Shown: positions 4,843-53,932, counted from the stretch's first letter. The stretch: DNA of 64,000 bases from Tissierellia bacterium (GCA_030535395.1 JAUNLK010000010.1:1-64000), one strand, 5' to 3'. Notes: generated from the sequence alone by a model not told the origin. Translations and numbers: made by a program.

Positions 4843-6204
4843 ATGTCAACAGATCATACAAAAAGACAGAAGCTCTTCGGCACCGATGGCATTCGGGGCC
4901 TTGCCAATGAGGAGCTCACCCCGGAAGTGAGCTTTCGCACCGGCCAGGCCTGCGGGGTCTATATCAAGCAGTCGGACCGCCCCTTTGTCCTCATTGGAAG
5001 GGACACCCGGATCTCCGGGGAGATGATTGCATCGGGCCTCATCCACGGCCTCACCAGTGTGGGGGTGGATGTGGTGGATTTGGGGGTGCTGCCCACTCCG
5101 GCGGTGGCCTATTTGGTCCGGAAGTACGAGGCAGCGGCGGGGATTGTGGTCTCCGCCTCCCACAATCCCTATCCCTACAATGGCATTAAAATTTTTGACG
5201 CCACCGGCTACAAACTCCCCGACGAGGCGGAGGAGGTCCTGGAGGCCATGATTTTGGATCCGGAATTTAAGCCCCACCTGGCCCAGGGAAAAGCCGTGGG
5301 GAGAATCCGCCACGATTTTCCCGGAGTGGTGGACTATATGGACTATCTCAAGGGCTTTTCCACCGGCAGGCGAGAGCTCAAGGTGGTGGTGGACTGCGCC
5401 AATGGGGCCCTCTCTGAAATTGCAGGGGAGGTCCTCGAGGCCTTTGCCACGGAGGTCATTGTCACCTCAGCATCGCCCAATGGCTGCAATATCAACGACG
5501 GCTGCGGCTCCACCCACCCCGAGGTCATTCGGGCCCTGGTGAAGGAGCACGGGGCCCAGGTGGGCTTTTCCTTTGACGGCGATGCCGACCGCATTGTGGC
5601 CGTGGACGAACTGGGAGAGGTGGTGGATGGCGACCACATCCTCGCCATTACCGCCCACCACTTAAAGAGCCAGGGCCTCTTGGCCAAGGACACCATTGTG
5701 GGCACGGTAATGAGCAATATTGGCCTGGACGAATTTGCCCAAAAGCACGGCATGAAGCTGGTGAAGACCAAAGTGGGGGACCGCTATGTCCTGGAGGCCA
5801 TGCGTAGGGAGGGCTATGTCCTGGGGGGCGAGCAGTCGGGCCACATCATCTTCAGCCAGTACAATACCACCGGGGACGGCCTGGCCACGGGCCTCCACCT
5901 CCTGGAGGTCCTGGACCGCACGGGCATGTCCATGAGCGCCCTCAATCAAATGATGACCAGCTATCCCCAGGTTCTGGTCAATGCCAAGGTGGCCAATGGC
6001 AAAAAGCACGACTACAATCACCATGGGGGCATCCAGGAGGCCATCCGCAAAATGGAGGCCAAATTTGAGGGCACGGGTCGAGTTCTCATTCGCCCTTCGG
6101 GAACGGAGCCTTTGGTCCGGGTGATGCTGGAGGGGGAGAATGAGGAAGTGTTGCGCAGGGAAGCCGAGAAATTGGCCCAGTACATTGAGGAGGAACTAGC
6201 TTAA
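4843..6204 (+). CDS. glmM: Phosphoglucosamine mutase
   Basis: A 453-residue enzyme converting glucosamine-6-phosphate to glucosamine-1-phosphate for UDP-GlcNAc and hence peptidoglycan synthesis. Recognisable blocks are F-G-T-D-G-I-R-G at the N-terminus, the phosphoserine loop S-A-S-H-N-P with Ser106 as the predicted phosphorylated residue, the metal loop D-G-D-A-D-R, the sugar-binding G-E-Q-S-G-H-I, and the phosphate-binding R-P-S-G-T-E-P near the C-terminus. Length is normal. The adjacent degV start overlaps the stop codon by one base, so both are in one operon. No glmS ribozyme or other regulatory RNA was recognised in the leader. Confidence 0.97.
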   Translation: MSTDHTKRQKLFGTDGIRGLANEELTPEVSFRTGQACGVYIKQSDRPFVLIGRDTRISGEMIASGLIHGLTSVGVDVVDLGVLPTPAVAYLVRKYEAAAGIVVSASHNPYPYNGIKIFDATGYKLPDEAEEVLEAMILDPEFKPHLAQGKAVGRIRHDFPGVVDYMDYLKGFSTGRRELKVVVDCANGALSEIAGEVLEAFATEVIVTSASPNGCNINDGCGSTHPEVIRALVKEHGAQVGFSFDGDADRIVAVDELGEVVDGDHILAITAHHLKSQGLLAKDTIVGTVMSNIGLDEFAQKHGMKLVKTKVGDRYVLEAMRREGYVLGGEQSGHIIFSQYNTTGDGLATGLHLLEVLDRTGMSMSALNQMMTSYPQVLVNAKVANGKKHDYNHHGGIQEAIRKMEAKFEGTGRVLIRPSGTEPLVRVMLEGENEEVLRREAEKLAQYIEEELA

Positions 6205-50723: not shown

Positions 50724-50748
50724 CAAAAAAAGGAAGGTCTCCCTTCCC
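50724..50748 (-). terminator. Terminator of the XRE-ImmA-PolY-YolD operon
   Basis: On the minus strand GGAAGG-GAGA-CCTTCC followed by a seven-T run, directly after the last gene's stop. Confidence 0.9.
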
Positions 50749-50749
50749 T

Positions 50750-51052
50750 TTAATCTCCAGGGGCCGGTGCCAACTTTCGTCGGTGGCCCAGATACTGATA
50801 GCGGAGGAGGCCTCTATTTTCCTCACAGGGCTGCACCTTGAAGAAAAAATAGTGATCGGCCCCGTCCCTGGCATTGGGGGCATTGAGCTTGAAATAATTT
50901 TTCTCCGTGGTGACCATCATGTGGAGGATGTCCTCGGTGAGAAAGGTGAGGGGGGTGCTCACATTGGCACAGGCGTAGAAGTCCTCCTCAAATTGCTCGT
51001 AGTTGCCACTGAAGTAGTCGAATTGGACGCTGCTGCTCTTGAGTCTATTCAC
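50750..51052 (-). CDS. Small conserved-looking protein of unknown function, last gene of the PolY/YolD operon
   Basis: A 100-residue protein that I do not recognise. It starts at a GTG inside the 3' end of the YolD-like gene (eight-base overlap) and ends just before a terminator, so it belongs to the same transcript. The sequence is acidic and aromatic-rich in the first half (F-D-Y-F-S-G-N-Y-E-Q-F-E-E-D-F-Y), has a helical T-E-D-I-L-H-M-M segment and a strand-like Y-F-F-F-K-V, and ends in a basic/Pro tail. No membrane segment or signal peptide. The genetic coupling suggests a role with YolD or the polymerase; that is an inference only. Confidence 0.75.
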   Translation of the reverse strand: MNRLKSSSVQFDYFSGNYEQFEEDFYACANVSTPLTFLTEDILHMMVTTEKNYFKLNAPNARDGADHYFFFKVQPCEENRGLLRYQYLGHRRKLAPAPGD

Positions 51053-51401
51053 TTTCCACCCCCTCTGGAAGGGTCAGCCGGAGGATCTCCCCGTGGGCAA
51101 AATTGGGGAGGCCGTCGGCAGTTTTGAAATACAATTTTTCCTGGGTGAGCTGGTGGACGGTGCCCAGAAAGGGGGCCCTCCTCCTACTTGTGTAGAGGAG
51201 GACTCTCTGCCGGTTCAAAAGGAGCTGGCTCAAATAGAGGAGCTTCTCCTCCAGAGAGAGGCCTCCGGAGAAGTCCAGGCTGTCCCCCGCCTGGGCCAGG
51301 GCCGTGGCGTGTTCCGAAATAAAAAATCCCATCCACTTGGCCATCCCCCGGTCCACATAGGCCCTGGCCGAGGGATAGGGCAGATAGCTGCGGTCAATCA
51401 T
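51045..51401 (-). CDS. YolD-like family protein
   Basis: A 118-residue YolD-like protein. The family signature is visible as Y-V-D-R-G-M-A-K-W-M-G-F-F-I-S-E-H (usual D-R-G-M-x-K-W-x-x-x-x-L-P-E-H) near residues 15-31. The remaining part forms a likely small beta fold (R-V-L-L-Y-T, G-T-V-H-Q-L, L-Y-F-K-T). YolD-like proteins sit beside UvrX/UmuC-type Y-family polymerases in Bacillota and have been thought to serve as accessory factors in place of UmuD. The ATG overlaps the polymerase stop (ATGA). Confidence 0.88.
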   Translation of the reverse strand: MIDRSYLPYPSARAYVDRGMAKWMGFFISEHATALAQAGDSLDFSGGLSLEEKLLYLSQLLLNRQRVLLYTSRRRAPFLGTVHQLTQEKLYFKTADGLPNFAHGEILRLTLPEGVESE

Positions 51402-52795
51402 ACAATTCCATCCAATCCTCCACAGTGGCCCCCAATGAGCTTGCTCCGCTCCCTGACCCTGGAGCCCTCCATGAGGGAGCTGGCCCGCTGAACGGCCAGG
51501 TATCCGAAGCGGTCCCGAATCTCATCAATGGCCCGCTCCAATTGCTCTGTCTTTTCCATTTGTTCAATATCGTCAAAGAAGCTGTAAATGGCCTGGCCCT
51601 CATCCACCAGCTCCCCATAGCGGACGCCAATGCGGCGCACGGCCCCCCGGCGGTATTTTTTTCGGAAGAGGCTGAGAACGTGGCCGGTGAGCTCCCGGGT
51701 GCTCTGGGTGGGCCGCACCTTCATGCTGGTATTGATGGACTTCAGGGCCTCCCGGTGGCTGAAGCCCACATGGAGGGAGACCACCGTGGCCTTTTTGTGA
51801 ATGCGGCGGAGGCGAATGGCCACCTGCTCCGCCATTTCCGAGAGGACAATTTCCATCTCTTGAATTTTGACATAGTCCCTCGGCAGCACCTGGGAGTTGC
51901 CAATGCCCCTAGACTGGGGCCGGTAGGGCCGGGCCAAATTGCTCTCATCCACCCCGTGGGCGTGGAACCAGAGCTGGAGGCCCATGATGCCAAACTCCCT
52001 TTGGAGCCGCTCGGGATTGGCACAGGCCAGCTCCCTTATGGAGTGAATGCCCAGTTTTTCCAGCCTCTTGGCCACGCGCTGGCCAATGCCCCAAAAGTCC
52101 GTGAGCTTGGGAATGGCCCACAGCTTGCTCTCCACATCCTCATAGGACCAGAGGGCCCGCATATTCTTGTTCTTCTTGGCCTCATTGTCCAGGGCGAGTT
52201 TCGCCAGGAGGGGATTGGCATCGCTCATGCCCACAGTGGAGAAGATCCCCGTGGCCCGCCAAATCTCCTGCTGAATTTTGGCCGAGAGGAGGTCCAGCTT
52301 TTCCCGGCGGTCCATGGTTTTGTCGGGGATGAAGTAGTTGAGGGAGGTGGTGAGGTCCAAAAAACCCTCGTCAATGGAGTAGGGGTGGATCTCCCTCTCT
52401 GAGGCGAAGTTTTCAAAGATCTTCTGTATCTTTAAGTTTTCCTCAATGTAGAGGGCCATTCGAGGGGGCACAATGAGGGTTCTCTTCGCCCACTTTTCAA
52501 TGTGGGCCACATACTCTTGGCTGACCCTCTGGCCATTGGGGCGAAACTTCCGGCTGTGGATATCGAAGGGGAGATCCCCGCTTCTGCTCACATTCTCCTT
52601 TCCAAAGACCTCCTTGAAGGTGGGGGAGCTGGCCAGAATGAGGCCCCCGGCATTGTCCGCCCGGCTCATGACGCAGAGGGAGGTCTTCAGGGGGTGGAGG
52701 CCCCTCTGGACGCACTCCACACTGGCATAGAAGGACTTCATGTCGACGAAGGCGATGTCCGAGTGGGGCTCCCTGCTATAGTCGATGATGGCCAT
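51398..52795 (-). CDS. Y-family translesion DNA polymerase (UmuC/UvrX-like)
   Basis: A 465-residue Y-family polymerase. The first metal Asp lies in I-A-F-V-D-M-K-S-F-Y-A-S-V-E, the second pair in Y-S-I-D-E-G-F-L-D near residue 140, then V-G-M-S-D-A-N-P-L-L-A-K-L-A-L, and the helix-hairpin-helix W-G-I-G-Q-R-V-A-K-R-L. The little-finger domain follows. It is of the UvrX/UmuC type of Gram-positive mobile and damage-response loci, not DinB. The start at ATG 52795 is fixed by an in-frame stop just upstream; GGAGG lies rather far, 13 bases away. It is the third gene of a five-gene operon. Confidence 0.94.
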   Translation of the reverse strand: MAIIDYSREPHSDIAFVDMKSFYASVECVQRGLHPLKTSLCVMSRADNAGGLILASSPTFKEVFGKENVSRSGDLPFDIHSRKFRPNGQRVSQEYVAHIEKWAKRTLIVPPRMALYIEENLKIQKIFENFASEREIHPYSIDEGFLDLTTSLNYFIPDKTMDRREKLDLLSAKIQQEIWRATGIFSTVGMSDANPLLAKLALDNEAKKNKNMRALWSYEDVESKLWAIPKLTDFWGIGQRVAKRLEKLGIHSIRELACANPERLQREFGIMGLQLWFHAHGVDESNLARPYRPQSRGIGNSQVLPRDYVKIQEMEIVLSEMAEQVAIRLRRIHKKATVVSLHVGFSHREALKSINTSMKVRPTQSTRELTGHVLSLFRKKYRRGAVRRIGVRYGELVDEGQAIYSFFDDIEQMEKTEQLERAIDEIRDRFGYLAVQRASSLMEGSRVRERSKLIGGHCGGLDGIV

Positions 52796-52825
52796 GGCCC
52801 ATCACATCCCTCCCACTTCCGGCCC

Positions 52826-53383
52826 TCACGGGGCCTCCTTCCAGAGCTCCTCCTCGGGGCGATAGTCCTTGAGAAAATCGGCGTGGGGCCGCCAGAGCTT
52901 GGAGGCGTCCAAATCCAGTAGCTTCATTTTTACCATCTCTGCAATTTTCAAATGGAGGAGATTGACATCCACCCCCAAATTTGCCGCCAACTCCCCATCA
53001 CTGAGGGGGGAGTCTGCGGCCCTTAAAATCTCCTCGTCGGGGATGAGGAGGTGGGCGGCGAAAATATTGGCCTCCATCTCATAGCGATTGGTGGGCTGAA
53101 GGCTCCGGATCTCGTGAAAGGTGGCCCCCTCCATGGACTCCCTTCGGTGGAGCTGATCGTGGCCCAACTCGTGGGCCAGGACCGTCTTTCTCAGCCTCCC
53201 CACATTGTTGGGAAGGAAGATGAAGCGATTTCTGAGAATGACCCGGTACATCCCCAAAAGGGACTCCGTGGCATCCATGTACTTGAGGTGAATATTCAGC
53301 TGGGCAATGAGCTCATCGGGATCCCTGGAGCGATACTTCTTCACCAGGCCATTGACCTTGTCGTAAATCCATTGATTGCTCAT
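52826..53383 (-). CDS. ImmA/IrrE family zinc metallopeptidase
   Basis: A 185-residue protein with a zinc peptidase motif H71-E-L-G-H75 and the later N-x-x-A-A-x-L-L-I-P block typical of ImmA/IrrE (COG2856). The C-terminal part (S-D-G-E-L-A-A-N-L-G-V-D) forms a small helical domain. Family members cut an XRE-type repressor (ImmR of ICEBs1; DdrO of Deinococcus) to induce genes after DNA damage. An XRE repressor gene lies immediately upstream and a Y-family polymerase immediately downstream, so repressor cleavage here is the natural reading. Confidence 0.93.
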   Translation of the reverse strand: MSNQWIYDKVNGLVKKYRSRDPDELIAQLNIHLKYMDATESLLGMYRVILRNRFIFLPNNVGRLRKTVLAHELGHDQLHRRESMEGATFHEIRSLQPTNRYEMEANIFAAHLLIPDEEILRAADSPLSDGELAANLGVDVNLLHLKIAEMVKMKLLDLDASKLWRPHADFLKDYRPEEELWKEAP

Positions 53384-53391
53384 GACGGAAC

Positions 53392-53790
53392 CTATTTCTT
53401 GCGATTTCCGTACTTTTTATTTTCAATTTTCGACTGCCAATAGGCCTCCTGTATGGCTTGAAAGAGGGCGTCCTTGTCCTCCTCGGGGAGTTCCCCCCCG
53501 GCAAAGAGCCCCGTCATGGAGTCCAGCAGGTCCCGAGCGTCCCGGGCCCCTCCCTGGGAAAACTGCCGGGCCGAGTCCATAATGAAGTACTCCTCCTGGG
53601 TGAGGAGATAGTTGACATTGACCTGGAAGACCTCGGCCATTTTCTCATAGACCTCCATTTTTCGGGGGCGCAGATCCTTGGACTCATAATTGCTCACCGT
53701 CTTGGAAGAGGTGCCAATGAGCTGGGCCAGCTCCCTTTGGGTGAGCCCCTTTTTCTCTCGCAGTGCCTTTATTTTCTCTCCAAAACCCAC
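53392..53790 (-). CDS. XRE-family transcriptional regulator, probable repressor of the operon
   Basis: A 132-residue protein with an N-terminal helix-turn-helix of the Xre/Cro type (residues about 5-60: L-T-Q-R-E-L-A-Q-L-I-G-T-S-S-K-T-V-S-N-Y-E). The C-terminal part (about 65-132) contains L-F-A-G-G-E-L-P-E-E-D-K-D-A-L-F-Q-A-I-Q-E-A-Y-W, seen in regulators paired with ImmA/IrrE peptidases. The start is a GTG with AAGGAGGT seven bases ahead. Its stop is eight bases from the ImmA/IrrE start. It is probably the repressor that binds the two palindromes upstream. Confidence 0.92.
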   Translation of the reverse strand: MGFGEKIKALREKKGLTQRELAQLIGTSSKTVSNYESKDLRPRKMEVYEKMAEVFQVNVNYLLTQEEYFIMDSARQFSQGGARDARDLLDSMTGLFAGGELPEEDKDALFQAIQEAYWQSKIENKKYGNRKK

Positions 53791-53812
53791 AGCGGACCTC
53801 CTTACAATAGTA

Positions 53813-53827
53813 GAAATTCAATTTCCA
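53813..53827. promoter_or_regulatory. Proximal operator-like palindrome of the XRE operon
   Basis: On the minus strand TGGAAATTGAATTTC: a GAAATT-S-AATTTC palindrome with one central base, just upstream of the Shine-Dalgarno and start of the XRE gene. Confidence 0.7.
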
Positions 53828-53903
53828 CCTCCCCCGGGAGTTTTCCAGGAGAGGGGAAATTAAATGGGAAGATTTTTCCAAAACTAGAAACTAAGTTACC
53901 ACT

Positions 53904-53932
53904 AATATAAATTGAATTTCCATCTAAGTCAA
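53904..53932 (-). promoter_or_regulatory. Promoter of the XRE operon with distal operator in its spacer
   Basis: Minus strand: TTGACT (53932-53927), 17-base spacer, TATATT (53909-53904). The spacer contains TGGAAATTCAATTT, matching the proximal palindrome in 14 of 15 positions. The centres of the two palindromes are 95 bases apart, about nine helical turns. Confidence 0.78.

Follow-up and report, generated by a model that had tools for sequence, protein, structure and literature searches.

A putative XRE/ImmA repressor-protease switch in front of a translesion polymerase cassette in the Peptoniphilaceae

Gene organization of the operon

We analyzed a stretch of 64,000 nucleotides (the window) from Tissierellia bacterium (GCA_030535395.1 JAUNLK010000010.1:1-64000), focusing on a five-gene operon in which the genes of an XRE-family repressor and an ImmA/IrrE-family protease precede those of a Y-family DNA polymerase and two small proteins. 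The host is a member of the Peptoniphilaceae. All five open reading frames are encoded by the minus strand. Consecutive genes are separated by 8 and 30 bases and then overlap by 4 and 8 bases, in full agreement with the first-pass annotation, which was made from the sequence alone. The first gene (53392..53790, GTG start) encodes a repressor of 132 amino acids, in which a helix-turn-helix (HTH) domain (HTH_3, 1.1e-11; PADLOC capH, 1e-14) is followed by a helical C-terminal domain with a conserved GLFAGG loop. The second gene (52826..53383) encodes a zinc metalloprotease of 185 amino acids (Peptidase_M78 PF06114, 6e-15; PADLOC capP, 1.6e-11), which contains the conserved motifs HELGH (HEXXH) and, downstream, EMEAN (EXEAN); the residues H71, E72, H75, E102 and E104 are invariant in an alignment of 11 sequences. 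The third gene (51398..52795) encodes a UmuC/UvrX-type Y-family DNA polymerase of 465 amino acids (IMS and IMS_C, ~1e-19) with the catalytic motifs DMKSFYASVE and SIDEGF. These Pfam matches agree with the families to which the three proteins had been assigned in the annotation.

The fourth gene (51045..51401), which shares 4 bases with the polymerase gene, encodes a protein of 118 amino acids that had been called YolD. The N-terminal motif R-YL..AR..D..M.KW..FF.SEH is invariant in its family, and three of 22 family members match YolD (PF08863) weakly (best E value 0.007), but the window protein itself has no Pfam match. We refer to it as YolD-like and consider it a putative UmuD analogue; YolD proteins have been proposed to be counterparts of UmuD (PMC6511836). 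The product of the fifth gene (50750..51052, GTG start, 100 amino acids), previously listed as an unknown small protein, matches Pfam DUF5960 at 7.5e-32. It has a predicted alpha/beta fold (predicted local distance difference test score of the model, 77), for which a comparison with PDB gave no match below an E value of 0.6 at this model quality, and the attempt to deduce a function from the fold was dropped. No paper on DUF5960 turned up in our literature search. The protein is probably an accessory part, because it has no structural relative in PDB and is missing from a Campylobacter plasmid version of the unit described below.

Promoter and operator-like sequences

The first gene is preceded by a sigma-A promoter (TTGACT-17-TATATT, 53904..53932, minus strand), around which three AT-rich operator-like sites were identified on the same strand. 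O1 (TGGAAATTCAATTTATA, 53906..53922) is located inside the spacer between the -35 and -10 elements, O2 (TGGTAACTTAGTTTCTA, 53885..53901) lies directly 3' of the -10 element, and O3 (TGGAAATTGAATTTCTA, 53811..53827), a palindrome upstream of the ribosome-binding site, matches the consensus exactly and is unique genome-wide. In a comparison of 12 loci, a clear sigma-A promoter with a spacer of 17 or 18 bases was observed in 11 of the 12 promoters; in L308 the -35 and -10 elements chosen by the script are poor. Within the promoter spacer, most of these loci have a half-site TAGAARTT, the inverted half-site begins 11 bases past the -10 element in nine of them (ten if the -10 element of L308 is TATAAT), and a third operator-like site near the ribosome-binding site can be observed in several. 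In one sub-group of three loci the half-site is TAGGACTT and not TAGAARTT, and the recognition helix of the repressor differs there as well (SRYE versus SNYE, seen in L037 and L207).

Genome-wide, operator matches with no or one mismatch occur only at the operon's own promoter, and a wider XRE regulon was rejected on this ground; matches with up to three mismatches are fewer than those of a reversed control pattern. The switch looks local and autoregulated, since no other place in the genome has operator-like sites of this quality. At the other end of the operon, a likely but weak intrinsic terminator (~50725..50751, minus strand) consists of a 10-bp stem, a GAGA loop and a T run, and folds no more stably than shuffled sequence does (z 0.04). 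The single promoter proposed initially is a good one, and the single terminator is plausible.

The operon had also been described as LexA-less, which holds for the operon and not for the organism. A canonical LexA (TIGR00498, 185 bits; cut-off 111) is present in this genome; its gene and a LysM gene are transcribed divergently, and several sites resembling a LexA box lie in between. Upstream of the operon the best match to a LexA box has four mismatches in 14 positions and none lies at the promoter, so LexA control of the operon was rejected. Beside lexA (L045:1598-2300, in G000:C10), the terminal 3' part of this LysM (YneA-like) gene, along with about 100 bases that follow it, appears to be present in at least three tandem copies.

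Distribution of the unit and exchange of its controller

The distribution of the unit was analyzed by searching the proteins of 61 genomes and by scanning 84,980 species genomes. Close relatives of the polymerase are found mostly in Streptococcus, and also in some Peptoniphilaceae and Aerococcaceae, in Peptostreptococcus and in one actinomycete. The full order XRE-ImmA-polymerase-YolD-DUF5960, whose conservation the annotation had left to be checked, is kept in the window and has been conserved in nine more genomes or contigs, namely Parvimonas micra, Peptoniphilus duerdenii, a metagenome-assembled genome of Bacillota, five further genomes of the same family (G005, G505, G030, G514 and G507) and a contig of the viral collection IMG/VR, in which the five genes are followed by NikA/MobC-like and relaxase genes. 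Because the same order recurs in relatives, the operon is more than a chance arrangement. Neofamilia has the first four genes, and a DUF5960 gene was not detected there. The first four genes, without DUF5960, are also present on plasmid p16192 of Campylobacter sp. RM16192 (L279:4995-7766), between HipA-type genes and pieces of a zeta toxin, with a polymerase about 71% identical to that of the window; this copy represents a transfer across phyla onto a Gram-negative plasmid. None of the window's flanking genes tdk, psuG, rodA, queG, nth and rpoB was found near any of 12 loci with the same polymerase, and a common chromosomal site was accordingly rejected. The unit moves as a block and behaves like mobile cargo, as relatives lie on a plasmid or beside a relaxase gene and have no flanks in common. 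The chromosomal location noted at first is correct for the window and does not extend to these relatives.

The polymerase-YolD-DUF5960 part corresponds to the widespread streptococcal umuC cassette. In streptococci, a self-cleaving repressor with HTH and S24 domains (HdiR-like) fills the slot that is held by XRE and ImmA in the window, where the repressor has no S24 domain and an M78 protease gene lies alongside. We scored this controller slot in 89 loci with the same polymerase, S24 being recognized by a sequence motif that was confirmed by Pfam in two examples, and found HTH-S24 in 72, XRE+ImmA in 12 and neither in five, one of which (L064) is cut by a contig end and retains an apparent S24 tail. 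In Facklamia no controller gene occupies the slot, and the polymerase start is preceded, at a distance of 42 bases, by a perfect LexA box (CGAACAAACGTTCG); in the actinomycete Propionimicrobium there is a LexA box with two mismatches. In a maximum-likelihood tree every XRE+ImmA member falls within one clade (support 100/99), in which Peptostreptococcus porci (HTH-S24) and Propionimicrobium are nested. Forcing the XRE+ImmA members into a clade of their own is weakly rejected (approximately unbiased test, p-AU 0.031), and the tree requires at least two controller changes on well-supported branches. This suggests that the control unit of the mutagenic cassette can be exchanged. HdiR of Lactococcus and Streptococcus responds to DNA damage via RecA, and in S. 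uberis it governs only the mutagenic cassette (PMC8565304). By analogy with these alternative controllers, XRE+ImmA is probably damage-responsive too, and its exchange with damage-responsive controllers of the same genes is the best argument for it.

XRE-ImmA pairs beside other polymerases

A profile of the repressor matched in 89 of 130 genomes of the family and in 24 of 300 genomes across the phylum. The XRE-ImmA pair was present in 54 of the 60 family loci fetched, and in 34 of these 54 a Y-family polymerase lies within 1 kb of the pair: six are of the UmuC type and downstream, and 28 are PolIV-like (a label with NCBIfam support in one example), 27 of them divergent. Counted by genus, the pair is accompanied by a polymerase in 14 of 20, and outside the family, in the wider phylum, in seven of 20 loci. 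All of these shares are biased upwards, because repressors linked to a polymerase had served as seed of the profile and the loci were chosen by best score, and the genera are not independent. With about two such genes among about 1,800, we estimate chance adjacency at well under one per cent. On balance, we are inclined to regard XRE/ImmA as a controller of Y-family polymerases that is widespread in Bacillota and independent of LexA, that has been paired with at least two polymerase lineages (UmuC-type in one operon and PolIV-type divergent), that can be swapped with HTH-S24 or LexA in front of the same mutasome and that is sometimes borne on mobile elements.

Repeated TACGCAnnTnATTTC-type sites can be observed in L204, L202 and L205 in the region from which the PolIV-like polymerase and XRE genes diverge, three of them in L204, in a layout that resembles the three sites of the window operon. 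In L210, L214, L215, L219 and L222 the XRE-ImmA pair has no nearby polymerase, and the next gene is similar in several of these loci.

Proposed switch and alternative explanations

We propose, with a probability of roughly three in four, that the locus is a local, autoregulated repressor/protease switch that is induced by DNA damage and serves a translesion-synthesis mutasome. As long as growth is normal, the repressor would occupy as many as three sites at and near the promoter of its operon and keep the five genes silent. Upon DNA damage, signaled by single-stranded DNA, by RecA or by zinc release, ImmA would cut the repressor, probably within the GLFAGG loop between its last two helices. 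In the repressor model, a long helix reaches residue 96 and the last helix starts at 103 after the loop, with a confidence there of 58-69 to 80; IrrE cuts DdrO between Leu106 and Arg107, in the loop preceding the last helix (PMC8072749). The promoter would then open, the polymerase, its YolD partner and DUF5960 would be made, and new repressor translated from the same mRNA would restore silence, XRE+ImmA thereby taking the place of the HdiR-type HTH-S24 repressor of the streptococcal cassette. As PprI and CapP are activated by single-stranded DNA (PMC10904395) and ImmA of ICEBs1 through RecA (PMC10233336), the window ImmA could likewise be activated by single-stranded DNA, zinc release or RecA.

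A self-contained switch, as put forward by the first-pass annotation, is well supported by the kept gene order, by the exchange of the controller with HdiR-type repressors or LexA and by operator-like sites that are private to the operon. The conserved promoter geometry, the frequent position of XRE-ImmA pairs beside Y-family polymerases and the damage response of the nearest characterized relatives speak for it as well. DNA binding, damage as the signal, cleavage and its site, and mutagenesis are what we infer for the window operon. The unit is conserved and probably functions as a local switch assembled from two known modules.

Several observations weigh against the proposed switch. The HTH of the window repressor superposes well on DdrO, but its predicted C-terminal domain of two long helices superposes poorly (full-length template modelling score 0.43, root-mean-square deviation 9.8), and IrrE has a GAF-like domain whereas the window ImmA shows Peptidase_M78 only. 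None of 2000 shuffled promoters reached the observed motif scores, but the promoters scored in this test had also supplied the operator motif, so that the test is not an independent one. The XRE-ImmA pair is not polymerase-specific, since 20 of the 54 family loci have it without a polymerase, and further genes may be under its control. A LexA-box-like site (one and two mismatches) adjoins the -35 element at ~4920-4950 in the sister pair L051/L053, and some members such as these may be under double control by LexA and XRE.

The last observation, together with the presence in the genome of a lexA gene whose own promoter carries LexA-box-like sites, would fit an operon belonging to the ordinary LexA regulon and only fine-tuned by XRE/ImmA; given the poor LexA-box matches upstream of the window operon, we regard this as very improbable. 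It is unlikely, though less so, that cleavage of XRE by ImmA controls the operon in response not to DNA damage as such but to zinc or redox stress or to a signal from a mobile element, with induction of the polymerase being part of a general stress response. Zinc that is set free during oxidative stress reportedly activates IrrE of Deinococcus (PMC8072749), ICEBs1 ImmR/ImmA also responds to a cell-cell signal (PMC10233336), and units related to the window operon sit on mobile elements; however, the HdiR-type S24 repressors and LexA that control the same cassette respond to RecA filaments (PMC8565304), which points to damage as the common input. A putative toxin-antitoxin system made up of a metalloprotease and an HTH-Xre protein has been described (PMC10538038) and XRE-ImmA pairs without a polymerase exist, so that the pair might be a toxin-antitoxin or element-immunity module merely placed before the cassette. 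This is quite improbable in view of the tight spacing and single promoter, the constancy of the gene order across many genomes that differ in all flanks, the block on a plasmid of another phylum and the recurrent association with a second lineage of polymerases.

The usual explanation of bacterial stress-induced mutagenesis involves RecA together with LexA or its S24 relatives. In the window, an unrelated pair of protease and repressor seems to control this mutagenic cassette, and the genome bears LexA as well. If this is true, mutagenesis would be uncoupled from the SOS regulon, and the cassette offers a natural swap experiment with three kinds of sensor and one output. Many XRE-ImmA pairs of anaerobic Bacillota would gain a concrete, testable function, and DUF5960 would be placed in a repair context. 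LexA-independent control of mutagenesis is thereby made testable.

Comparison with known systems

The nearest characterized relatives of the two regulators are ImmR/ImmA, DdrO/IrrE and CapH/CapP, in all of which an XRE-family HTH repressor is encoded beside an M78 protease; all three are damage-responsive (PMC8072749, PMC10233336, PMC10904395). ImmR/ImmA of ICEBs1 and related elements likewise combines a short XRE repressor with a downstream M78 protease that lacks a GAF domain, and the DNA-binding domain of ImmR is among the best PDB sequence matches of the window repressor, but that pair governs element excision whereas the window pair sits on a polymerase operon. DdrO/IrrE of Deinococcus likewise controls DNA-damage genes; DdrO governs a regulon, whereas the window repressor probably has a local target, and the Deinococcus mutagenesis cassette is under LexA, not DdrO (PMC8072749). 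CapH/CapP of cyclic-oligonucleotide-based antiphage signaling systems (CBASS), the best PADLOC matches of both regulators, show similar operon control by a repressor and a protease, with immunity as the output instead of a mutagenic polymerase.

In the literature searched, we did not find the repressor switch, its operators or its exchange with HdiR/LexA described. A link between zincin-like peptidases and translesion polymerase genes was noticed earlier by Aravind et al. 2013 (PMC3765255), in the available part of that article without the XRE repressor switch, an operator or the UmuC-YolD-DUF5960 cassette. The UvrX/YqjW-YolD mutasomes of Bacillus likewise combine a Y-family polymerase with a YolD partner (PMC6511836), but they are under LexA and no XRE/ImmA pair has been described with them. 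The closest counterpart of the output genes is the streptococcal hdiR-umuC cassette, in which the polymerase (59-66% identity), the YolD-like protein and DUF5960 follow a repressor gene in the same order. Varhimo and colleagues reportedly described hdiR-umuC with two small genes in Streptococcus uberis in 2007. This SOS-mutagenesis cassette (Varhimo et al. 2007) is cited in PMC8565304 and PMC3901139. The streptococcal cassette has one self-cleaving HTH-S24 repressor, whereas the window operon has the two-protein XRE+ImmA controller.

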